Assembly (NCBI RefSeq): GCF_000631985.1
Contig: NZ_JFYN01000001.1
Coordinates: 372,001 to 436,000 of the forward strand
DNA length: 64,000 bases
Direction: 5' to 3'
DNA from: Pseudomonas sp. RIT288
Lineage (GTDB): Bacteria; Pseudomonadota; Gammaproteobacteria; Pseudomonadales; Pseudomonadaceae
Below the pieces are notes generated by a model that was given only the letters and a program-made list of their open reading frames with translations, had not been told where the DNA came from and did not search any database. Positions 6,515-33,149 of the stretch are shown here, in pieces. How positions within the stretch are numbered: the first letter of the stretch is position 1; every line of letters begins with the position of its first letter. Position numbers and translations under genes: made by a program.

Positions 6515-6988
6515 ATGAAAATCCCAAGACTTCTGGCCGCATTGCTGATGGCTCAGGCCGGCCATGCATTGGCCGAGGACAATGCGCAAGGCAAAGATTT
6601 CTGGTATGCCCAGACCAGTCTCTACACCCGACATTACTCGCCCGACCCCGAACACAATAATCATCAGGACTTGATCGGCATCGAACGCAATCAGGCGTCC
6701 GGCTGGGTCTTTGGCGGGGCAACTTTCCGTAACTCGTTCCGCCAGCGCTCGAACTACGCCTATGTCGGCAAACGCTATGACAGCAGCGAGTACCCGGTGT
6801 ATCTGAAAGTCACGGGTGGGCTGTTGCAGGGGTATCGCGGTGATTACAAGGACAAGATTCCCTTGAACCGCTACGGCGTTGCGCCGGTGATCATTCCGTC
6901 CGTCGGGACTCACTATGGCCCATTGGCCGCCGAGCTGGTGTTTCTCGGCGCCAATGCGGCGATGGTGACTAGCGGCGTACGTTTCTAG
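6515..6988 (+). CDS. pagP: PagP-like lipid A palmitoyltransferase (divergent outer-membrane beta-barrel)
   Basis: A 157-residue protein with a signal peptide (about 1-20, cleavage at ALAED) and an alternating beta-barrel pattern ending in a C-terminal phenylalanine (VTSGVRF). The order of landmarks follows E. coli PagP. A histidine lies in an early strand (LYTRHYSPDPEHNN, cf. catalytic His33). An Asn-Ser pair appears in ATFRNSFRQRS where E. coli has Asp76-Ser77. A GGL-GYRGDY-IPL-PVIIPS stretch resembles the barrel's C-terminal half. PagP transfers palmitate from phospholipid to lipid A, raising resistance to cationic peptides. Some databases label such proteins glycerol-3-phosphate transporters, which the barrel structure does not support. 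Confidence 0.65.
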   Translation: MKIPRLLAALLMAQAGHALAEDNAQGKDFWYAQTSLYTRHYSPDPEHNNHQDLIGIERNQASGWVFGGATFRNSFRQRSNYAYVGKRYDSSEYPVYLKVTGGLLQGYRGDYKDKIPLNRYGVAPVIIPSVGTHYGPLAAELVFLGANAAMVTSGVRF

Positions 6989-7010
6989 GGGTGGGACTCA
7001 AACGCGCGGG

Positions 7011-7979
7011 TCAAGACCGAGGCGCATACGCAAATACATCGGCGCGCATCTGATGTGCATCCATCCCGGCTTCCACCAGCGCATCCAGAGTCCCGTAGAC
7101 CATCGCCGGCGAACCGCTGGCGTATACATGCAGGGACTTCAGATCGGCGAAGTCTTCGCACACGGCCTGGTGCAGCATCCCGCAGCGCCCTTCCCAACCG
7201 CACTGGTCGCTGACGACTTTGTGCAGGAACAGGTTGGGCAGCTTCAGCCATTCGTCCCAATGCTCGATGTCGTAGAAATCTTCCGGACGGCGTACGCCCC
7301 AGTACAGATGCACCGGGTGTTTGAAGCCATTGGCGCGGCAGTGTTCGATCAGGCTGTGGATCTGGCCCATGCCGGTGCCAGCGGCGATCAGTACCAGCGG
7401 CCCGTCAGGCAGCTCGGCGAGGTGGGTGTCGCCGAATGGCAGCTCGACACGCACCATCGCGTTGCGTTGCAGCTGTTCGATCAGGCTCAGCGCACTGGCT
7501 TCGCGGGCCAGCACGTGGATTTCCAGATCACGCCCGCCGTGCGGCGCCGAGGCCATGGAGAACGCCGATTTCTCGCCGTTTTCACGCTCGATCATCAGGT
7601 ACTGCCCGGCGTGATAACGCGGCGGCTTGCCGGCCGGCGCACGCAGACGCACGCGCCAGGTGTCGCCGCCGACATCCCGGCATTCGATGACCTGACACGA
7701 CAGGCTGCGCACCGGCAGTTCTCCCAGCGCGAGCACGCCATCCCACAGCAGGACGCAGTCTTCCAGCGGCTCGGCTATGCAAGTGTAGAACTCGCCGTGG
7801 TCATGCACCTTGCCGGCCTGCTCGACCCGGCCTTCCACCAACAGCGCCGCACACACGTGGCAATTGCCATTGCGACAGCTTTGCGGGCATTCATAGCCCA
7901 GGCGCCGCGCACCATCGAGAATCCGCTCGCCGGGCCGTATCTCAAGCACGGCTCCGGAGGGCTGCAGGGTTACACGCAT
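7011..7979 (-). CDS. Ferredoxin-type FAD/NAD(P)H reductase (CDP-6-deoxy-glucoseen reductase-like)
   Basis: A 322-residue iron-sulfur flavoprotein. The N-terminal 2Fe-2S domain has CPQSCRNGNCHVC at about 31-43 with the fourth cysteine in FYTCIAEP. It is followed by an FAD-binding barrel (YHAGQYLMIE, FSMASAP) and an NAD(P) domain (GTGMGQIHSLIEH). The domain order matches AscD/RfbI and the phenol-hydroxylase reductase family. The start overlaps the ubiD stop by one base (TGATG), so the two are likely translated as a coupled pair. Despite the usual database name, a deoxysugar pathway is not evident here; a role as a reductase linked to UbiD or ubiquinone metabolism is an inference from the coupling. 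Confidence 0.8.
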   Translation of the reverse strand: MRVTLQPSGAVLEIRPGERILDGARRLGYECPQSCRNGNCHVCAALLVEGRVEQAGKVHDHGEFYTCIAEPLEDCVLLWDGVLALGELPVRSLSCQVIECRDVGGDTWRVRLRAPAGKPPRYHAGQYLMIERENGEKSAFSMASAPHGGRDLEIHVLAREASALSLIEQLQRNAMVRVELPFGDTHLAELPDGPLVLIAAGTGMGQIHSLIEHCRANGFKHPVHLYWGVRRPEDFYDIEHWDEWLKLPNLFLHKVVSDQCGWEGRCGMLHQAVCEDFADLKSLHVYASGSPAMVYGTLDALVEAGMDAHQMRADVFAYAPRS

Positions 7980-9514: not shown

Positions 9515-11515
9515 TTACTTGGCTGCATTCGTCTGTGCTTTTCCACGGTTTTCCCGGGCTTGCAGGCCGATAAACAGCGGCTCAAGGATCGGCGCCACAA
9601 ACCGCGCACCGACTTCGGACAGATGATTGTCATCGGTGTACAGCGAGTAGCCGCCGAGTTCGGCGTGGCACAGGCCGTTTTCATCACACAGTCGCGGGGC
9701 CGGATCGACCACGCGCACCGCCGGATCATTCTGCGCCAACTGCGCGAACAACTGACTGATGAACACCTGACGCTTGTGGTGCGCCTCGACGGCCAGGCCG
9801 ACGTCATCCACCGGGCGATCGAGCATCGCCAGCCGCGTCAGCCGATACGGCGGACTGAACGCCTGCAACGGCGCCTCTTTCACCAGCCATACGCGATGCC
9901 CGGCCGCACGCAATTGCGCGACGCGAGTGCGCAGGCCTGCGGCAAAACGCTGTTCGGCCTCGGCGCGATCGTAACGACCGTCTGGCGTTCTCAAGACATG
10001 CCCGAGATCACCCTTGGCGTCGCCGTACAGATACAGGCTCCAGCGTGCGACCAGCACCACATCGCTGATCGCCTGGTTTTTCAGCCCCTGCTCGACCCGC
10101 TTGTTGAAGCGCGCGCAGACACCGTCATGCTCCAGCCCATCGACCGGAATGCAACCCGGAGAACTGGCCAGAATCACGCTGACACCGTGGGCTTTGGCAC
10201 CGTCATCGAACACCGGGATCAGCGCCGTGGCATGGCTGTCGCCCCAGACCATCGCGCGAGTCGGCAGATCCGCCACGCCGTAATGACAGAACAGCTTGTC
10301 GTCCGGGGTCTTGTCGTCCGCCAGACACGCCATCAGCTCCGGCCGCCACTCGCGGCCCTTGGCGTATTGCAGCGCCTGCTCGGACAAGCGCCATGGCAGG
10401 CCATCAGTCCAACGCAGCGATTGCCCGGCCAGACCGAGCACCAGAATCCCGCAGAAACCGGCCAGCAGAATCTGCCGACGACCGGCGAGCAAGCGCCGTT
10501 CACGAAACGGCGTTTCGACGAACTTCCACGACAGATAACCCAACACCAGAGTCAGCAGAATCAATCCGGCCGTGTCGAGCGCGCCCGGTTCGTCGACACT
10601 GGCGTAGCTGGAAAACACGAAGACCGGCCAGTGCCACAAATACCAGGAATAGGAGATCAGCCCGAGGCCGACCATCACCCGGCTGCTCAACAATTGCCCC
10701 ACCAGCGTTTCGCGATGACCGTTGGCCAGAATCAGCAGCACCACGCCCAGCACCGGCAGCAACGCGGTAACACCCGGGAACGGCGTCGACTTGTCATAGG
10801 CGAACACCGCCAGCAGGATCAAGCCCATGCCGAGCAGGCTCAAGGCCTGGGCAGCCATCGGCTTCAAGCGCCAGGCGTGTTTCGGCGCGACCGCCAGCAT
10901 CGCCCCGGCGAGCAACTCCCAGGCACGCATCGGTAGCAGGAAGAAGGCTTTTTCCGGGTGATGCTGGATCGCCCACACACTCAGGCCGAACGACACCAGC
11001 AGCACGCCGAACAGCGCCAACCGCCAGTGTTTCAGGCGACTCGAGAGCAACGTCAGCAGCAGCGGGAAGAAGATGTAGAACTGCTCCTCCACCGCCAGTG
11101 ACCATGTATGCAGCAACGGTTTCAGGTCAGAGGCGACGTCGAAATAGCCGTCCTGGCGCATGAACAGGATGTTCGAGACGAACATCACCTGATAGCGCAC
11201 CGAACGCCCCAGTTCTTCGTAATCCTTGGGCGCCAGCAGGAACCAGCCCACCGCCAGCACCGCAATGATCATCGCAAACAGCGCCGGCAGAATCCGCCGC
11301 GCACGCCGCGCCCAGAACTCGACGAAACTGAAACGGCCAGCCTGACGCTGATTCCAGATGATCGAGGTGATGAGGTAGCCGGAAATCACGAAGAACACAT
11401 CCACGCCGACAAAACCGCCGGTGAACCCCGGAACGCCAAAGTGGAACAGCACCACGGCGATCACCGCGACTGCCCGCAAGCCGTCGATATCCCTTCGATA
11501 AGCGAGTGTGCTCAT
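9515..11515 (-). CDS. OafA/YrhL-type membrane acyltransferase with C-terminal SGNH domain
   Basis: A 666-residue two-domain enzyme. Residues about 8-370 are the acyltransferase-3 domain: the RDIDGLRAVAVIAVVLFHFG start includes the catalytic His, GVDVFFVISGYLI follows, and there are about ten membrane segments. Residues about 420-660 are a periplasmic SGNH domain with GDSHATALIP (Ser nucleophile block) and DDNHLSEVG (Asp/His block). Such proteins take acetyl groups across the membrane and O-acetylate exported glycans such as O-antigen or peptidoglycan. The target is unknown. It is downstream of rho and separated from it by a terminator, so it is probably transcribed on its own. Confidence 0.85.
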   Translation of the reverse strand: MSTLAYRRDIDGLRAVAVIAVVLFHFGVPGFTGGFVGVDVFFVISGYLITSIIWNQRQAGRFSFVEFWARRARRILPALFAMIIAVLAVGWFLLAPKDYEELGRSVRYQVMFVSNILFMRQDGYFDVASDLKPLLHTWSLAVEEQFYIFFPLLLTLLSSRLKHWRLALFGVLLVSFGLSVWAIQHHPEKAFFLLPMRAWELLAGAMLAVAPKHAWRLKPMAAQALSLLGMGLILLAVFAYDKSTPFPGVTALLPVLGVVLLILANGHRETLVGQLLSSRVMVGLGLISYSWYLWHWPVFVFSSYASVDEPGALDTAGLILLTLVLGYLSWKFVETPFRERRLLAGRRQILLAGFCGILVLGLAGQSLRWTDGLPWRLSEQALQYAKGREWRPELMACLADDKTPDDKLFCHYGVADLPTRAMVWGDSHATALIPVFDDGAKAHGVSVILASSPGCIPVDGLEHDGVCARFNKRVEQGLKNQAISDVVLVARWSLYLYGDAKGDLGHVLRTPDGRYDRAEAEQRFAAGLRTRVAQLRAAGHRVWLVKEAPLQAFSPPYRLTRLAMLDRPVDDVGLAVEAHHKRQVFISQLFAQLAQNDPAVRVVDPAPRLCDENGLCHAELGGYSLYTDDNHLSEVGARFVAPILEPLFIGLQARENRGKAQTNAAK

Positions 11516-11658
11516 AAAATCTTTAATGCCAATCAGGTGGTTGTTTTTTATACAGCGCGAGCCCGAGTCAGGAGGCTCGCGAGCGCTGCTTGTTGTATTG
11601 CCCGATCACAGACCTTACCAGATCGGGAACCTCCCATGATCCGGACAAAATTCAGGCA

Positions 11659-11694
11659 AAAAAATGGCGCCCCGCACGGGACGCCATTTTTATC
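11659..11694 (-). terminator. Rho-independent terminator downstream of rho
   Basis: The stem TGGCGTCCC/GGGGCGCCA (minus strand) is flanked by A and T runs. It begins about 20 bp past the rho stop codon and would end the rho transcript. Confidence 0.8.
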
Positions 11695-11710
11695 GGATCA
11701 ACCGGCGATG

Positions 11711-12970
<1,260 letters not shown>

Positions 12971-25113: not shown

Positions 25114-27012
25114 TCAGGCAGTCGTGATCCGCTTCTTCTCGGCCATCCGGCTGCGCCCGTACAGCACAACAATCGCCAGAATCGCCACCGCCTGCGCCGT
25201 CAGCGAATAGGCATCGGCGTGAATTCCCAGCCAGTCGAACTCAAAGAACGCCACCGGCCGTGTGCCGAAGATCCCGGCTTCCTGCAGCGCTTTCACGCCA
25301 TGCCCGGCGAACACCACCGACAACGCACAGAGCAGCCCGGCGTTGATGCTGAAGAACAGCGCCAGCGGCAGTTTCGCCGAGCCGCGCAGGATCACCCAGG
25401 CCAGACCGATCAGCAGCACCAGCGCCGTCGCACCACCGGCCAGCACCGCGTCATGCCCGGCAGGGCCGGCCTGCAGCCACAGGGTTTCGTAGAACAGGAT
25501 CACTTCGAACAGCTCGCGGTACACCGAGAAGAACGCGAGGATCGCGAAGCCGAAACGCCCGCCGCCGCCGACCAGACTCTGCTTGATGTAATCCTGCCAG
25601 GCCGCCGCGTGGCGCCGGTCGTGCATCCACACGCCGAGCCATAGCACCATGACGCTGGCGAACAGCGCCGTGGCGCCTTCGAGCAGTTCACGCTGCGAGC
25701 CGCTGACGTCGATCACATACGCCGCCAGCGCCCAAGTGCCGAGACCGGCGAGCAGCGCCAGGCCCCAACCGATGTTGACGCTGCGCACCGCCGACTGCTG
25801 GCCGGTGTTGCGCAGAAACGCGAGGATCGCCGCCAGCACCAGAATCGCTTCGAGGCCTTCACGCAGCAGAATCAGCAGACCGGAGATAAAGCTCAGCGAC
25901 CAGCTCAGGCCATCGCTGCCGAGCAGTTCGGCAGACGCTTTCAATTTATCCTTGGCCGCGTCCAGACGCTGCTCGGCCTGCGCCACCGGCAAGCCGTCCT
26001 GCAACGACTGACGGTAGGCCATCAGCGATTTTTCGGTGTCCTTGCGCACGTTGGCGTCGACGTTATCCAGCGAGCTTTCGACCAGTTCGAAACCCTCCAG
26101 ATACGCCGCCACCGACAGGTCATAGGCCTGATCGTGATCACCGGCACGGTATGCCGCCAGGCTCTTGTCCAGCGTGGCGGCGGTGTAGTCGAGCAGCTGC
26201 GTCGGGCCACGCTTGACCTGCGGCGGCTGGGCGCGTTGGGCACGGAAGCTCGCAGCGACCTGCGGGCCTTCGGCGGCCTGCACTTCGGCCGGCGTCTGGC
26301 GCGCCAGATCAGCGATGTTGAAGGTCTTGTCGGCCTTGGCTGCGGCCGGGTCGGCACTGAAACCGGCGATGTAGGTCGCCAGATCCCAACGCTGACGGTC
26401 GTCCAGTTGATCGGCGAACGCCGGCATGTCGGTGCCTTCGACGCCTTGGCCGAGGGTGCTGTAGATCGCGTACAGGCTCAGATGATCGATGCGTGCGGCA
26501 TCGCGCAGATTGGCCGGCGGCGGCGTCATGCCGAGCCCCGCCGGGCCGTCACCGGCGCCGGTTGCACCGTGGCAGACCGAGCAGTTCTGCGCGTACAGCG
26601 GCGCGCCTCGGGTCGGATCGGGTGTGATGATCGGCGCTTGGCTGACTTCATACGCCACCGCCAGTTTCGCCCCCAGTTGTCGGGCCTGATGCGCGACGTC
26701 GGCGCCGTCCTGCTTCGCCGTGATAGCCGCGTGCAGAGCTGCGACGCCCTGCTCCAGCGCAGCCTTCTCCGGTTTGGCCGGCAGAACTGCGATCAGCCCT
26801 TGCAACACCTGGGTGAATTCCAGTTGCTCGCGGTATTCGCCGTCGTCGACGACCTTGCCCGCCTCTACCGTCGGCGGGTAGTCGGCGCTGATGTAATCAA
26901 GCAGGTGCAGCGCCTGCGGCGCGCCTTCCACGGTGTCGGCCAGCAGGTTGAAACTGCTCAGGGCAAACACAGGGAACACCAGCCAGGCCAGGAAACGGGA
27001 CGCGGCAGTCAT
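25114..27012 (-). CDS. Cytochrome c / FTR1 fusion: high-affinity iron permease
   Basis: A 632-residue protein. The signal peptide is 1-26. A periplasmic region has one c-type haem site, NCSVCHGATGAGDGPAG (about 145-160), followed by TPPPANLRD and GQGVEGTDMPAF with the likely axial Met. An alpha-helical segment covers about 270-375. The FTR1 permease domain (about 380-625) has seven hydrophobic segments and two REXXE iron-binding motifs, REGLEAIL and RELFEVIL. FTR1/EfeU proteins import iron after oxidation of Fe(II). Here the haem domain is built in, which suggests that the oxidation or electron step is done by the same polypeptide. No EfeO or EfeB gene is adjacent. Confidence 0.88.
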   Translation of the reverse strand: MTAASRFLAWLVFPVFALSSFNLLADTVEGAPQALHLLDYISADYPPTVEAGKVVDDGEYREQLEFTQVLQGLIAVLPAKPEKAALEQGVAALHAAITAKQDGADVAHQARQLGAKLAVAYEVSQAPIITPDPTRGAPLYAQNCSVCHGATGAGDGPAGLGMTPPPANLRDAARIDHLSLYAIYSTLGQGVEGTDMPAFADQLDDRQRWDLATYIAGFSADPAAAKADKTFNIADLARQTPAEVQAAEGPQVAASFRAQRAQPPQVKRGPTQLLDYTAATLDKSLAAYRAGDHDQAYDLSVAAYLEGFELVESSLDNVDANVRKDTEKSLMAYRQSLQDGLPVAQAEQRLDAAKDKLKASAELLGSDGLSWSLSFISGLLILLREGLEAILVLAAILAFLRNTGQQSAVRSVNIGWGLALLAGLGTWALAAYVIDVSGSQRELLEGATALFASVMVLWLGVWMHDRRHAAAWQDYIKQSLVGGGGRFGFAILAFFSVYRELFEVILFYETLWLQAGPAGHDAVLAGGATALVLLIGLAWVILRGSAKLPLALFFSINAGLLCALSVVFAGHGVKALQEAGIFGTRPVAFFEFDWLGIHADAYSLTAQAVAILAIVVLYGRSRMAEKKRITTA

Positions 27013-28143: not shown

Positions 28144-28149
28144 TATAAT
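28144..28149 (+). promoter_or_regulatory. -10 box (TATAAT) upstream of first COG3014 gene
   Basis: A consensus TATAAT in the context CCCTTATAATGCG lies 42 bp before the start codon. The -35 is weak. The same C-C-x-TTATAATGC context occurs before the second paralogue, suggesting the promoter was duplicated with the gene. Confidence 0.5.
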
Positions 28150-28191
28150 GCGCCACCTCGTCGCATTTCCCGCTCAAGGATGACCCTCTTC

Positions 28192-29586
28192 ATGCGCCAT
28201 CGTTTGCTGCTGCCCCTGTTGATAGCCGCTGTAGTGCAACTGAGCGGCTGCGCCGCGTACCGCAACTATGACCTGGAACTGCAACAGACCACTGACCAGT
28301 TCAAGGCCGGCAACATCGACGGCGCCCTGACGCTGATCGAAGCGCACAACCCCGACCCGGATAAAGACCTGCTCTACTACTTCGAAAAAGGCGCCGTACT
28401 CAGCGCCGGCGGCGCACTGCCACAGAGCCAGACAACCTGGCGCAGCGCCGAGCAGATGATCATCCAGCGCCAGGACACGATCGAGACCACCGGCGACAAG
28501 TTGCTCGCGGCGATGGGCGATCACTGGGGCGGCATCATCAATGACAAGCTGCGACGCTACGATGGCTATGACTATGAAAAGGTCATGCTGACCACGCAAA
28601 TGGCCCTCAACCAATTGGCGGTGAATGACTTCGACGGCGCCCGTGCCGACATCAAGAAAACCCACGAACGCGAAGCGCTGATCGCCCGGCAACGGGAGCT
28701 GGAATACGAAAGGATTGAGGAGGCGGCCAAGGCCCAGGGCGCACGCGTGCATTACAAGGACCTGCAGGGTTATCCGGTGGTGATGCTCGAATCCCCGGCA
28801 GTGATTGCCCTGAAAAACGGTTACCAGAGCGCGTTCAGTCACTACCTCGCCGGTTTCACATATGAGGCACTCGGCGAAAAAGACCTCGCGGCGCCCGGTT
28901 ATCGTCAGGCCATCGAACTGCGCCCGGACATGCCGTTTTTCCAACAGGCATTGCGCGACCTCGACAGCCCCGGACTCAAGGCCGACGAAAGCGATGTGCT
29001 GATCATCGTACAAAGCGGCCTGGCTCCGGCCCGTAGTTCGGTACGCGTACCGTATCCGGTGCAGCTCAAGGACGGCCAGGTGATCGTCGCCAATATTTCC
29101 TTCCCGGTGATGGTGCCGGATAACTCCACGGCGCCGTTCAATCAGGTCCGCATTGACGGTCGCGAGAAAAAGCTGATCGCGGTCAACAGCATCACCGATA
29201 TGTCTTTGCGCACGCTGCGTGACGACATGCCCGGGATTATCCAGCGCACGACCTACCGTGCCTTCCTCGCAGCGGACGTTCAGGGCACCGACAATCGCCG
29301 TAATCCGGGCAAGGCCTCCTACGTGACCCAATGGGATGGTTTCGAGCAGGCCGACACCCGCACCTGGCGCACCCTGCCCAACCTGACACAGGTCGTGCGC
29401 CTGCGTCTGAAAAAGGGCGATCACCAGATCAGCCTGCCGAACACGTCAGGCGCTCCACTGAACATCCGCATCGACCAGAATCGCCAGATGATCGGCCTGC
29501 GCATATTGGGCGAGCGAATTTTCACCAACGGCAGCGCTTTTCAATCCGCCATGTCGATGGGAAATCGCGTATCTGCCCTGAAATAA
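28192..29586 (+). CDS. COG3014 family lipoprotein, paralogue 1
   Basis: A 464-residue lipoprotein. The ATG at 28192 (AAGGA 11 bp before) gives signal MRHRLLLPLLIAAVVQLSGC with lipobox LSGC. The following residues AAYRNY carry no Asp at +2, so outer-membrane sorting is expected. Residues about 30-230 have a helical repeat-like region (DKDLLYYFEKGA, DYEKVMLTTQMALNQLAVND, YEALGEKDLAAPGYRQA) suggestive of TPR-like packing. The C-terminal domain shares ADTRTWRTLP and VVRLRLKKGDHQISLP with its neighbour. It lacks the hydrophobic helix found at about residue 370 in paralogue 2. Function of the family is unknown. Confidence 0.8.
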   Translation: MRHRLLLPLLIAAVVQLSGCAAYRNYDLELQQTTDQFKAGNIDGALTLIEAHNPDPDKDLLYYFEKGAVLSAGGALPQSQTTWRSAEQMIIQRQDTIETTGDKLLAAMGDHWGGIINDKLRRYDGYDYEKVMLTTQMALNQLAVNDFDGARADIKKTHEREALIARQRELEYERIEEAAKAQGARVHYKDLQGYPVVMLESPAVIALKNGYQSAFSHYLAGFTYEALGEKDLAAPGYRQAIELRPDMPFFQQALRDLDSPGLKADESDVLIIVQSGLAPARSSVRVPYPVQLKDGQVIVANISFPVMVPDNSTAPFNQVRIDGREKKLIAVNSITDMSLRTLRDDMPGIIQRTTYRAFLAADVQGTDNRRNPGKASYVTQWDGFEQADTRTWRTLPNLTQVVRLRLKKGDHQISLPNTSGAPLNIRIDQNRQMIGLRILGERIFTNGSAFQSAMSMGNRVSALK

Positions 29587-29624
29587 GTAATGGCACCAAC
29601 CCAACAAGTGCAATTAAAAAGCTA

Positions 29625-29653
29625 TTACATAGCCAGTATCGCCCGCTTATAAT
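29625..29653 (+). promoter_or_regulatory. Sigma-70 promoter upstream of second COG3014 gene
   Basis: TTACAT (29625-29630) and TATAAT (29648-29653) are separated by 17 bp. It would give a leader of roughly 140 nt before the start at 29801 and drive the COG3014-YcfL-LpoB unit independently of paralogue 1. Confidence 0.6.
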
Positions 29654-29800
29654 GCCGCGCCCGCGCTATCGCGATGCGGCATAAAAGCTCCTCTGGTTAT
29701 GAGGAATTGGCAGGAGGCCAGCGCCACTGTCGATGGGTCACACCAGCCCGACCAGCACCGGCGGCTGATGCAGTTACTAGCTCAGGGAAGAAGTACCCCC

Positions 29801-31195
29801 ATGGCATTGCGCACTCCCACCTTGATCGCGCTCAGCGCTGTCACTCTGCTGTCCGGCTGTTCGGCGTTCCGCAGCTACGATTCGGAACTGGCCCAGACCA
29901 ACCAGCAACTGGCCACCGGCAACGTCGACGCCGCGCTGAGCCTGCTGGAAAAGCACAACACCGGCCCCGACAAAGACCTGCTCTATTACTTCGAGAAAGG
30001 TGAGTTGCTGCGCGCCAAGGGCGACCTGTCCGGCAGCCAGAACGCCTGGACCAGCGCCGACCAGGTGGTTGGCCAGTGGGAAGATTCGGTCAAGCTCGAC
30101 ACCGGTAAATACCTGGCTCAGTTCGGCAGCTTCCTGGTCAACGACAAGGTGCGTCGCTACGAAGGCTACGACTACGAAAAAGTCATGTTGACCACGCAGA
30201 TGGCCCTCAATCTGCTGGCCGTCAATGACTTCGACGGCGCCCGCACCGCGATCAAGAAAACTCACGAACGTGAAGCGGTGATCGCCGACCTGCGCGACAA
30301 GGAATACCTCAAGAGCGAGGAAGAGGCCGAGAAAGAAGGCATCAAGACTCAGTACAAGGATCTGCAAGGCTACCCGGTTGCCAGCCTCGACGCGCCGGAA
30401 GTGGTCAGCCTGAAAAACAGCTACCAGAGTGCGTTCAGCCATTACCTGGCCGGTTTCGTCTACGAAGCCCTGGGCGAGAAAGACCTGGCTGCACCGGGCT
30501 ACCGCAAGGCGGCCGAACTGCGCCCGAACACCCCTCTGCTGGAACAGGCGCTGGTCAACCTCGACAAGCCGAGCAAGTCCGACGACAGCGACATCCTGAT
30601 CGTGGTGCAAAGCGGTCTGGCACCCTCGCGTGATTCGATCCGCGTGCCACTGCCATTGCCGATCTCCAACAACGTGGTGATCACTCCACTGTCGTTCCCG
30701 ATCATCAAGCCTGACACCTCCACTGCACCGTTCGCGCAGATTGGCGTCGATGGTCAGCAAGTCAACCTGACCGCCCTCAACAGCACCACCGCCATGTCCC
30801 GCCGCGCTCTGCGCGATGACATGCCGGGGATCATCCTGCGCACCACCGTGCGCGCAATCACCAAAGGCGTGGCGCAGAAGCAGATCAACGAAACCAACCC
30901 GCTGGCCGGCCTCGCCGTGGGTATTTCTTCAGCTGTGCTGGAAGGTGCCGATACCCGTACGTGGCGCACCCTGCCGGACAACACCCAAGTGGTGCGTCTG
31001 CGCTTGAAGAAAGGCGAGCACCAAGTCAGTCTGCCGAGCGCCGTCGGCGGTTCGCTGGTCAAGGTCACCGTCGATCAGCGTTATCAAGTGATCAGCCTGC
31101 GTGCCGTGGGCAATCAGGTGTTCGCTGGCGGTCTCGCCGCCCACGTGATCCCGAGCGCTGCTGCGACCAACGTCGCCAGCCTCAAACAACCTTAA
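29801..31195 (+). CDS. COG3014 family lipoprotein, paralogue 2
   Basis: A 464-residue lipoprotein, exactly as long as paralogue 1 and clearly related over its whole length. Its signal is MALRTPTLIALSAVTLLSGC with lipobox LSGC. Shared blocks include DKDLLYYFEKG, RRYEGYDYEKVMLTTQMALN, SAFSHYLAGFVYEALGEKDL and VVRLRLKKGEHQVSLP. Unlike paralogue 1 it has a hydrophobic segment NPLAGLAVGISSAVLEG near residue 370. Downstream genes follow at 15-37 bp spacing, so it is the first gene of an operon with the YcfL-like gene, lpoB and a second LpoB-like gene. The association with LpoB suggests a role around peptidoglycan synthesis; this is inferred from context only. Confidence 0.82.
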   Translation: MALRTPTLIALSAVTLLSGCSAFRSYDSELAQTNQQLATGNVDAALSLLEKHNTGPDKDLLYYFEKGELLRAKGDLSGSQNAWTSADQVVGQWEDSVKLDTGKYLAQFGSFLVNDKVRRYEGYDYEKVMLTTQMALNLLAVNDFDGARTAIKKTHEREAVIADLRDKEYLKSEEEAEKEGIKTQYKDLQGYPVASLDAPEVVSLKNSYQSAFSHYLAGFVYEALGEKDLAAPGYRKAAELRPNTPLLEQALVNLDKPSKSDDSDILIVVQSGLAPSRDSIRVPLPLPISNNVVITPLSFPIIKPDTSTAPFAQIGVDGQQVNLTALNSTTAMSRRALRDDMPGIILRTTVRAITKGVAQKQINETNPLAGLAVGISSAVLEGADTRTWRTLPDNTQVVRLRLKKGEHQVSLPSAVGGSLVKVTVDQRYQVISLRAVGNQVFAGGLAAHVIPSAAATNVASLKQP

Positions 31196-31210
31196 GAACG
31201 GAGTCTTTGC

Positions 31211-31585
31211 ATGCGCTTCAAACTCATCGCCGTTGCCGCCCTCGCCATCCTGGCCAGCGGCTGCGCCACCCCGCCACCACCGGAGCCGGGCAGCGCCGCG
31301 AGCAAGGTCGTGGCCATGGGCCCGCAGAAACACATCGCGGTCGGCGCCATGCGCGTCGCCCGCGAGAACGGCTTCATGACCGTCAATGTGCAGTTGACCA
31401 ACACCCTCAACAGCAACAAGACGTTCTACTACCGCTTCGCCTGGCTCGGTGCGGAAGGTTTCCCGGTCGCCGAGGAAGAAGTCTGGAAAAGCCAGATGAT
31501 GTACGGCGCCCAGACCAGCTTCATCCAGGGCATCGCCCCGACCCCGAAAGCCGTGGATTTTCGTCTCGAACTCAAGACGCCTTAA
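31211..31585 (+). CDS. YcfL family (DUF1425) lipoprotein
   Basis: A 124-residue lipoprotein with signal MRFKLIAVAALAILASGC (lipobox ASGC) and a proline-rich linker PPPPEPG. A small beta-rich domain follows (VNVQLTNTLNSNKTFYYRF, WLGAEGFPVAEEEVWKS). It matches YcfL, which precedes lpoB (ycfM) in E. coli, so the YcfL-LpoB pairing is conserved far beyond Pseudomonas. Molecular function unknown. Confidence 0.85.
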   Translation: MRFKLIAVAALAILASGCATPPPPEPGSAASKVVAMGPQKHIAVGAMRVARENGFMTVNVQLTNTLNSNKTFYYRFAWLGAEGFPVAEEEVWKSQMMYGAQTSFIQGIAPTPKAVDFRLELKTP

Positions 31586-31621
31586 GTCCGCCACCCTATT
31601 CCTGTTTTAGAGAGCATTCCC

Positions 31622-32209
31622 ATGTTTGCACGCTTTTCCCTGATCGCTGTCCTCGCCCTGCTGGCTTCCGGTTGCGCCAACACCTCGCCGACCCTGGGTA
31701 GCAAGAACATCAGCTACGGCGACACCAAAGCGGTTGAAACCGTGACCAACGAATTCGGCTCGACCGACCTGCAAATGATCGCCGAATCGATGACCCGCTC
31801 GCTGGCCCAGTCCGGCATTCTGCAGGGCCGCCCGGTGGTGCAGGTCTACGATGTGAAGAACAAGACCAGCGAGTACATCGATACCCGCGAAATCACCACC
31901 AGCATCAAGACTCAACTGATGAAGTCCGGCACCGCCCGCTTCGCCAGCGACAACACCGCGATGCAGAGCCAGGTCGATCAGCTCAAGCTGCAAAACCAGA
32001 GCGGCCTGTACAAGAAGAGCACCGTGGCCAAGACTGGCAACATGATCGCCGCCAAATATCGTCTGGAAGGCTCGATCAGCTCGATCGTCAAGCGCAGCAG
32101 CGACTATAAGGACGTCTTCTACAAATTCAGCCTGCAACTGATCGACGTCGAAAGCGGTCTGGCCGAGTGGATGGACGAAAAAGAGATCCGCAAAACCACG
32201 GAGCGTTAA
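31622..32209 (+). CDS. lpoB: Penicillin-binding protein activator LpoB
   Basis: A 195-residue outer-membrane lipoprotein with signal ending LASGC. The globular domain has the LpoB features NEFGSTDLQMIAESMTRSLA, VVQVYDVKNKTSEYIDT and MIAAKYRLEGSISSIVKR. In E. coli LpoB reaches through the peptidoglycan to activate the bifunctional synthase PBP1b. The linker between the lipid cysteine and the domain is only about 12 residues here, much shorter than in E. coli, where it spans the periplasm. So either the partner is nearer the outer membrane or another protein, perhaps COG3014, bridges the distance. Confidence 0.85.
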   Translation: MFARFSLIAVLALLASGCANTSPTLGSKNISYGDTKAVETVTNEFGSTDLQMIAESMTRSLAQSGILQGRPVVQVYDVKNKTSEYIDTREITTSIKTQLMKSGTARFASDNTAMQSQVDQLKLQNQSGLYKKSTVAKTGNMIAAKYRLEGSISSIVKRSSDYKDVFYKFSLQLIDVESGLAEWMDEKEIRKTTER

Positions 32210-32212
32210 TTG

Positions 32213-32956
32213 ATGCGCGCATGGATTGGCATGATGGCCCTGGCTTGCGCGTTCAGCGTGCAAGCGGCCCCGAAAGTCGCGGTGACAGATCTGGCGTATC
32301 AGGAGCGTGTGGAACAGTACATCCACATCGTTTCGGCGCAGAACAATTACCGCGAGGGTTATTACAGCTCCAGTGGTTCCTCGAACTACAACGAGCTGGA
32401 AGCAACCACCAGCTACATCGAACAGGGTGAACTGCGTAAATTCACCGGCGACATCAAGGGTGAAATCCTGCGTACCGGAATGTTCCAGCTGGTGCAGGGC
32501 ACGCCGTACACCGCGTCGTCCAAGGGTGACGTCTATGACGTGATCAAGCGGATCAAGGCCGGCAGCTTCAAAGGCGCCGACTACGTGCTGTTCGGCACCG
32601 TGTCGGACATCGACTTTACCCAAGACATGAACGAGCTGGCGCACACCGACAGCTATTCGGCGGTGCTGGGCCTGACGCTGGTGGCGGATTTCAGTCTGAT
32701 CAACACCAAGACCTACGAGATCACTTCGGCCTTCACGGCGATGGGCGAAGCGCAGGACACCAAACTGGTGAATGGCCGCGACATCAAGATCTCGCTGAAT
32801 CGCCCTCGCGTGGTGCGTGAAGTATCGAAAGCGCTGGGTGAGGACGTGGCCGGGCAACTGAGCATGCAGCTCGGTGGCGGAGGTTACGAGCAGCCGCGTG
32901 AGGCGCAGCAGCGCAACAATCTGCCGCGTGATACCGCGCCGGTGATTTTGCACTGA
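32213..32956 (+). CDS. Second LpoB/CsgG-fold exported protein
   Basis: A 247-residue protein with a cleavable-type signal (MRAWIGMMALACAFSVQAAP) and no lipobox. The fold cues are those of the CsgG/LpoB superfamily: PKVAVTDLAY, ELRKFTGDIKGEILRTGMFQLV, GADYVLFGTVSDIDF and ADFSLINTKTYEITSAF. The ATG at 32213 is preceded by GGAG located inside the end of lpoB, 3 bp after its stop, so the two are probably coupled. The C-terminal ~30 residues are Gly/Gln/Arg-rich and likely disordered. It may act as a soluble partner of LpoB. Confidence 0.7.
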   Translation: MRAWIGMMALACAFSVQAAPKVAVTDLAYQERVEQYIHIVSAQNNYREGYYSSSGSSNYNELEATTSYIEQGELRKFTGDIKGEILRTGMFQLVQGTPYTASSKGDVYDVIKRIKAGSFKGADYVLFGTVSDIDFTQDMNELAHTDSYSAVLGLTLVADFSLINTKTYEITSAFTAMGEAQDTKLVNGRDIKISLNRPRVVREVSKALGEDVAGQLSMQLGGGGYEQPREAQQRNNLPRDTAPVILH

Positions 32957-33118: not shown

Positions 33119-33149
33119 AAAAAGGCGACCTCAAGAGGTCGCCTTTTTT
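33119..33149. terminator. Bidirectional terminator between LpoB cluster and LysE gene
   Basis: The stem AAAAAGGCGACCTC/GAGGTCGCCTTTTTT with a 3-nt loop serves both converging transcripts. Confidence 0.85.

Follow-up and report, generated by a model that had tools for sequence, protein, structure and literature searches.

What do five exported proteins accomplish that are encoded side by side in a Pseudomonas genome? The question is raised by positions 28192 to 32956 of a stretch of 64,000 nucleotides from Pseudomonas sp. RIT288 (contig NZ_JFYN01000001.1, positions 372,001 to 436,000 of the forward strand), called here as a whole the window, where genes of two COG3014 lipoproteins, of YcfL, of LpoB and of a second LpoB-like protein follow each other. 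The original prediction took the set for an undescribed peptidoglycan-control module in which COG3014 may help a short-linkered LpoB to reach its synthase. Our analysis points, with moderate confidence, to another role: the five genes form an operon-like version of an envelope module conserved in three phyla, which likely builds an outer-membrane-anchored periplasmic scaffold and does not mainly activate PBP1b, the class A penicillin-binding protein (PBP) served by LpoB in Escherichia coli. Since the combination COG3014-YcfL-LpoB recurs in three phyla, even where PBP1b is missing, it likely serves as a general outer-membrane and cell-wall scaffold and not as a PBP1b switch. The genes are the following.

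28192..29586, + strand: COG3014 lipoprotein, copy 1, 464 amino acids (open reading frame with lipobox LSGC; iterated COG3014 profile)
29801..31195, + strand: COG3014 lipoprotein, copy 2, 464 amino acids (lipobox LSGC; weak match to TPR; C-terminal part with the ADxRxWxxLP motif)
31211..31585, + strand: YcfL/DUF1425 lipoprotein, 124 amino acids (lipobox ASGC; PF07233 at 8.1e-20)
31622..32209, + strand: LpoB-family lipoprotein with a short linker, 195 amino acids (lipobox ASGC; PF13036 at 7.7e-43; TIGR02722 over its cut-off)
32213..32956, + strand: LpoB/CsgG-like exported protein, the fifth protein, 247 amino acids (PF13036 at 0.0012, under the cut-off; hhalign to LpoB and CsgG-like profiles)

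All five open reading frames lie on the forward strand with a lipobox or a Sec signal, as had been claimed, and the identities given to YcfL and LpoB were clearly confirmed: YcfL matched PF07233 with 71 bits (cut-off 28.3), and LpoB matched PF13036 with 146.3 and TIGR02722 with 144.7 bits (cut-off 110.55). LpoB carries the signal of an outer-membrane lipoprotein, with Ala at +2 of its lipobox as read by eye. The window's YcfL also matched the PDB entries 3o0l (1.8e-4) and 4gio (5.3e-3), the latter of which we take to be Cj0090 of Campylobacter jejuni. The two COG3014 copies are 58% identical; many homologues of copy 2 bear the source name 'COG3014 family protein', and the named ones at 95-96% identity are from Pseudomonas. 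Their description as large helical-repeat lipoproteins stood with respect to the lipobox and only in part with respect to the repeats, since the Pfam matches were confined to weak TPR similarity under the cut-off (the best, PF07719, at 4.2e-4 for copy 1 and at 6e-5 for copy 2). The C-terminal part gave no Pfam hit above a cut-off and contains the motif A-D-x-R-x-W-x-x-L-P, whose A, D, R and P are the same in all of 19 aligned members and whose W and L are the same in nearly all. The fifth protein reached 19.2 bits with PF13036 (cut-off 22.3), hhalign gave 88.8% to the LpoB and 82.8% to the CsgG-like profile, and the CsgG-like profile scored 74 bits. It has a Sec signal (..SVQA/APK..) and, by eye, no good lipobox, thus it is probably not a lipoprotein. 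Relatives of it (P0124 and others) are named 'penicillin-binding protein activator LpoB' in public records, though the window copy stays under the PF13036 cut-off. The anti-phage defence models of PADLOC matched none of the five proteins at E 0.001.

The survey of Gammaproteobacteria covered 229 genomes, in which COG3014 was detected by a single query in 39 and LpoB in 73 (strong LpoB, of at least 50 bits, in 49 by hand count). All COG3014 genomes and all strong-LpoB genomes except the window's own provided 52 regions from 50 genomes. Iterated profiles recognized COG3014 in 47 of these regions, and at 45 of the 47 loci LpoB was located on the same strand within 3 kb; the other two are in G226, which has no strong LpoB, and in G097, where LpoB is on another contig. 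Two layouts occurred in these regions: type A, COG3014-YcfL-LpoB, in some loci with an adjoining CsgG-like gene or OmpA-like barrel, and type B, LPP20-LpoB-COG3014-LPP20-like, without YcfL. The order COG3014-YcfL-LpoB, in which the genes are adjacent on one strand in the window (29801-32209), was found in 14/52 gammaproteobacterial, 24/43 Campylobacterota and 12/21 Planctomycetota regions.

COG3014 was present in 68 of 121 Campylobacterota genomes and, with many partial matches among the lower-scoring ones, in 64 of the 119 genomes of Planctomycetota. From Campylobacterota 40 regions were picked across the score range and 3 seeds found through YcfL were added; from Planctomycetota 20 better-scoring regions and 1 seed were taken. 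LpoB stood near COG3014, again on the same strand within 3 kb, in 31/40 (34/43 with the seeds) and in 20/20 (21/21 with the seed), respectively. A genome scan seeded with the 77 printed residues of 4gio led to four loci (L123-L126), two in C. jejuni, one in a Campylobacter metagenome-assembled genome (MAG) and one in a Phycisphaerales MAG, all four arranged COG3014-YcfL-LpoB as in the window (with scores of 200-273 bits for COG3014, 36-62 for YcfL and 98-118 for LpoB). Within 149 Pseudomonas genomes intact LpoB was found in 77 and COG3014 in 77, and these are the same 77 genomes (lists compared by eye). Chance clustering of the genes is ruled out by this identity and by the COG3014-LpoB linkage in the surveyed loci. 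COG3014, which had been proposed as the partner of LpoB, is accordingly its standing genomic neighbour, and their expected co-occurrence proved to be conserved across Gammaproteobacteria, Campylobacterota and Planctomycetota. The LpoB count for Pseudomonas rises to 78/149 with a remnant in a genome without COG3014 (G397:C1:2920825-2921013, 65 residues with an in-frame stop), which indicates that loss as well as gain has occurred. No relative of COG3014 copy 2 was found in a scan of viral contigs; in a protein database search with a wide COG3014 alignment, the source-named proteins among the best 120 matches were from Pseudomonas or unassigned.

In the LpoB tree (106 rows, a quick method, many weak forks) some Campylobacterota and Planctomycetota members (L185, L189, L221, L226, L227, L235) fall among those of another phylum, several of the forks being weak, and the LpoBs of G072 and G106 fall among Campylobacterota; these placements suggest horizontal transfer of the module. 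Neighbour clustering revealed a gene of the DUF6844 family as a further recurrent neighbour in 22 loci (19 in Campylobacterota, 3 in Gammaproteobacteria). A 931-residue CsgG/LpoB-like protein, possibly a multi-domain fusion, adjoins COG3014-YcfL-LpoB in L079 (G218, 9542-12337). In L069 (G059, 6563-7102) a second YcfL-like protein, recognized by profile and without a Pfam match, follows LpoB; in the class survey no other COG3014 resembles the window's as closely as that of this locus (36% identity). HlyD-type and ABC-transporter family proteins were seen near the module in L205, L221, L223 and L237 (one Campylobacterota and three Planctomycetota loci).

Does such a module control a peptidoglycan synthase? 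We regard it as unlikely that activation of PBP1b by LpoB, aided by COG3014, is what the five genes are for. The membership of LpoB in PF13036/TIGR02722 speaks for it, as do the PBP1b with a UB2H domain in the window's genome and the class-wide association and Vibrio cholerae genetics weighed below. In this genome, however, the gene of PBP1b (UB2H 84.5 bits) is followed by that of LpoP, which matches the solved LpoP structure (PDB 6w5q) at 2.6e-53, and an LpoP match was obtained in all 149 Pseudomonas genomes. PBP1b has here a separate cognate activator already, and this pair rules out LpoB as its only one.

The module also occurs in genomes that lack UB2H or have no class A PBP at all. With the Pfam UB2H model, frames of about 660 and 1,160 amino acids score 20-33 bits, some of them over the cut-off, so that counts based on the cut-off only are inflated. 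These hits are probably cross-matches to UvrB/Mfd, because PBP1b itself matches UvrB_inter, and therefore UB2H was counted only at 50 bits or more (131/229 gammaproteobacterial genomes, hand count). At this threshold UB2H was missing from 12 of the 49 strong-LpoB genomes (hand count), and 0/121 Campylobacterota genomes had UB2H over its cut-off. The class A PBP domain PF00912 was searched in 16 genomes (that of the window, 11 that have COG3014 and no strong UB2H, and the four reached through the 4gio scan) and was not found in G049, G188, G226 and the Phycisphaerales MAG G232. LpoB is present in G049, G188 and G232; G226 has COG3014 and YcfL and no strong LpoB. G049 and G188, the latter a single contig, are of one family and belong to the 12 genomes above. 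The transpeptidase PF00905 occurs in all four, thus class B PBPs are kept. Furthermore, the conservation of LpoB does not depend on UB2H: a mean of 17.2 of 20 conserved columns was retained in the 13 sequences without it and 17.4 in the 36 with it. UB2H-less members are scattered over the tree, and near-sister pairs with and without UB2H, such as G206/G081 and G071/G203, have similar short branches.

The linker of the window's LpoB, counted from Cys18 to the conserved N80, has 62 residues, 28 fewer than in E. coli LpoB (90), and the long flexible linker of the E. coli type is absent. The original prediction read this shortness as a possible need for a large partner. Its observation was correct, its conclusion is not supported: after the exclusion of 19 of the 106 LpoB sequences, which had no recognizable lipobox, the distance was 55-72 residues in the 86 members other than E. 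coli LpoB, the longest of all 87. The short linker is the norm of the family, which excludes it as a special adaptation and calls for no special partner. Control of PBPs as the main role of the module is not supported, and what stands of the earlier proposal is a conserved envelope module that seems to be undescribed as a whole.

The relatives of the module proteins offer another direction. Compared with the PDB, the LpoB profile found E. coli LpoB at 7e-11 and next 5t11 (1.1e-3) and 5t10 (1.9e-3), the latter of which is presumably also PelC. The C-terminal part of the CsgG-like partner proteins resembles TsaP in 3jc8 (1.4e-3) and 6ve2 (2.5e-9), which is labelled LysM-domain protein in the structure table and which we take to be TsaP, with a weak likeness to CsgG (0.011). 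The partner proteins of type B loci are relatives of LPP20 (4kzs, 5ok8), and 4 of 22 LpoBs match FlgT_M and 4 match CsgG. The kinship with FlgT and LPP20 might also hint at a flagellar role. 5T11 is a PelC dodecamer (PMC10927564), and PelC is a ring of twelve lipoproteins on PelB (PMC12141448); FlgP and FlgT, both ring-forming, have a fold in common with LPP20 (PMC12222027).

These similarities could also mean an export apparatus, in which a CsgG/LpoB-like pore or vestibule in the outer membrane secretes a polymer or a protein and COG3014 acts as a PelB-like TPR partner. Besides the likeness of the LpoB profile to PelC and the TPR partner known from PelB, PF03783 matches in CsgG-like partners (9.7e-18 in L084, 2e-8 in L085, 4.2e-8 in L126) are consistent with such a function. 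We nevertheless give it little credence, since an OmpA-like barrel was a neighbour in only 6 gammaproteobacterial loci (E below 1e-3), and the four neighbour families that span the three phyla, among those annotated, comprise an ABC ATPase, a sigma-54 regulator, a histidine kinase and an HlyD-type protein in mixed orientation; no annotated cluster shared the strand of the module throughout the three phyla. The window's fifth protein has no PF03783 match in the Pfam scan and looks non-lipidated, so it has neither of the two marks of a CsgG secretion channel, the PF03783 match and the lipidated N-terminus.

The periplasmic scaffold is favoured because of the relatives of the CsgG, TsaP, PelC and LPP20 kinds together with two mutant phenotypes. 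Deletion of hp0018, which codes for a COG3014 relative in Helicobacter pylori, leads to outer-membrane vesicles in chains and to cells of reduced helicity; HP0018 co-immunoprecipitates with the hydrolases AmiA and MltD (PMC11394524). Cj0091, the LpoB of C. jejuni, is in the outer membrane, and its mutant shows less adherence and reduced early colonisation (PMC3100323). The last observation is also the basis for reading the module as a system for adhesion or at the cell surface, which has been proposed for Cj0091. We hold this to be quite improbable for the module: the surface exposure of Cj0091 is left unsettled in the same paper, loss of cj0089 has no such effect, the module is widespread in Planctomycetota too, and the adherence loss may be secondary to an envelope change.

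According to the scaffold model, LpoB and the fifth protein would be subunits of the CsgG, FlgT-middle and PelC kind, which likely oligomerise into rings on the inner side of the outer membrane. The TPR part of COG3014 likely holds LpoB, the fifth protein and wall-modifying enzymes together, its conserved C-terminal part may provide a docking surface, and YcfL might be a small accessory. We infer from these analogies that such a complex exists, in Pseudomonas as well, and serves envelope integrity: it would join the outer membrane to the cell wall, and its loss would cause loosening and vesiculation, as reported for HP0018. E. coli LpoB was probably recruited from the module and gained its long linker to reach PBP1b. 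As a bolder and more tentative proposal, to which we would give somewhat less than even chances, COG3014-YcfL-LpoB with its CsgG/FlgT-like companion could be an ancient ring machine of the outer membrane, common to several phyla and fastening this membrane to the wall, from which E. coli LpoB is a late, long-linkered deserter; most 'LpoB' proteins of the databases would then not be PBP1b activators.

Several observations weigh against the scaffold. In the gammaproteobacterial sample LpoB shows a positive association with UB2H (UB2H in 37/49 genomes with strong LpoB and 94/180 of the others; Fisher p 0.0034, uncorrected for kinship). In V. cholerae mutations of mrcA and lpoA are synthetically lethal with those of mrcB and lpoB, and lpoB mutants act as PBP1B-pathway mutants (PMC4063736). 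Typas et al., with a 100-bit LpoB cut-off, described a joint conservation of LpoB and UB2H in enterobacteria and argued for co-evolution (PMC3060616). The association and the V. cholerae genetics indicate that activating PBP1b may belong to the normal work of some module LpoBs, thus be one task in some lineages. Cj0089 fractionates with the inner membrane, and its loss causes no adherence defect (PMC3100323); the vesicle chains of the hp0018 mutant were clearest in a strain that carries a fliP frameshift (PMC11394524). The ring relatives are distant (E 1e-3 for PelC, 1e-2 for CsgG), and the AlphaFold2 model of the fifth protein, made with 41 close relatives only, reached a pLDDT of just 34.7. 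The linkage itself has gaps: LpoB occurs without COG3014 in five gammaproteobacterial regions (G097, G204, G075, G136, G116), YcfL is found in only 16 of the 52, and 9 of the 43 Campylobacterota COG3014 loci have no LpoB nearby. These nine may resemble H. pylori, for which an hp0018 standing alone has been described (PMC11394524). In Pseudomonas seven COG3014 match rows contain in-frame stops and the G385 gene is in pieces, thus the module may be decaying in some members of the genus.

It should be emphasized that LpoB is known through one job, the activation of PBP1b, and that database models have spread its name to proteins of the family far beyond E. coli. The data suggest that this job may be the exception for the family. 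If so, many LpoB annotations are misleading, research has addressed a widespread envelope machine only part by part (a Campylobacter adhesion operon, a Helicobacter vesiculation gene, E. coli ycfL), and the recruitment of an outer-membrane lipoprotein for the control of a wall synthase can be put to the test. A natural control is available in Pseudomonas, where about half of the surveyed species are without the module and LpoP is matched in all.

The layout of the gene set in the window is operon-like. COG3014 copy 2, YcfL, LpoB and the fifth gene are separated by 3-36 bases, with 3 bases between the stop codon of LpoB and the ATG of the fifth protein. Copy 1, for which there is an alternative ATG start at 28180, ends 214 bases before copy 2, and a promoter-like match lies in between; an inverted repeat follows the set.

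29624..29653, + strand: sigma-70-like promoter match, ATTACA-18-TATAAT, upstream of COG3014 copy 2 (promoter scan)
33119..33149, no strand assigned: terminator-like inverted repeat with A/T flanks, 3' of the gene set (read directly from the sequence)

The promoter match is weak, and with 1 found versus 1.3 expected in shuffles no better than chance. TATAAT followed by GC occurs 5' of both COG3014 copies (28144-28149 and 29648-29653), as if a tandem duplication had taken in the promoter. The inverted repeat is missing from the motif-scan output, and the gene past it converges. Elsewhere in the window, a 632-residue frame on the minus strand (25114-27012) resembles, by eye only, a fusion of a cytochrome c domain (CSVCH) with an iron permease of the FTR1 type (REGLEAILV).

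In the open-licence literature of PubMed Central (PMC) we found no account of the COG3014-YcfL-LpoB module as a whole, COG3014 was not found by name and DUF1425 not alongside LpoB/YcfM; the families themselves are known from several systems. With the outer-membrane rings of PelBC, CsgG, TsaP/FlgT and FlgP/LPP20 the module proteins have domains in common at low sequence similarity, and unlike in those rings no beta-barrel, secretin, flagellar or pilus gene was recognized among the window's five and the two flanking genes scanned. The P. aeruginosa LpoP-PBP1b pair (PMC7267771) is also encoded in the window's genome; LpoP is a TPR protein unlike LpoB, and its gene adjoins that of PBP1b, outside the module. 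The LpoB-PBP1b system of E. coli has in common with the window the PF13036 family and the adjacency of ycfL and lpoB. The neighbours of lpoB there are hinT, ycfL, thiK and nagZ, however, without a COG3014 gene beside them, and E. coli LpoB sits on a long branch whose position is uncertain, sharing no more than 23% identity with the compared LpoB set. H. pylori HP0018 is by description a TPR lipoprotein related to Cj0089; hp0018 is syntenic with hp1457, the LpoB homologue, in enterohepatic species (PMC11394524), and the two are split in H. pylori itself, unlike in the window.

The two C. jejuni loci of our scan (L123 and L124) correspond to cj0089-cj0091 on the basis of gene order, sizes and the match to 4gio, whose assignment to Cj0090 is our assumption; L123 scored 217 bits for COG3014, 36 for YcfL and 118 for LpoB. 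The Campylobacterota loci differ from the window by the DUF6844-family gene (in 19) and by a CsgG-like gene recognized by iterated profile (also in 19; that of L171 is not called CsgG by Pfam), and the Pseudomonas window differs from C. jejuni by its two COG3014 copies and its shorter LpoB/CsgG-like fifth protein. The genes cj0089-cj0090-cj0091 are co-transcribed, and they represent the same three families in the same order as in the window (PMC3100323).

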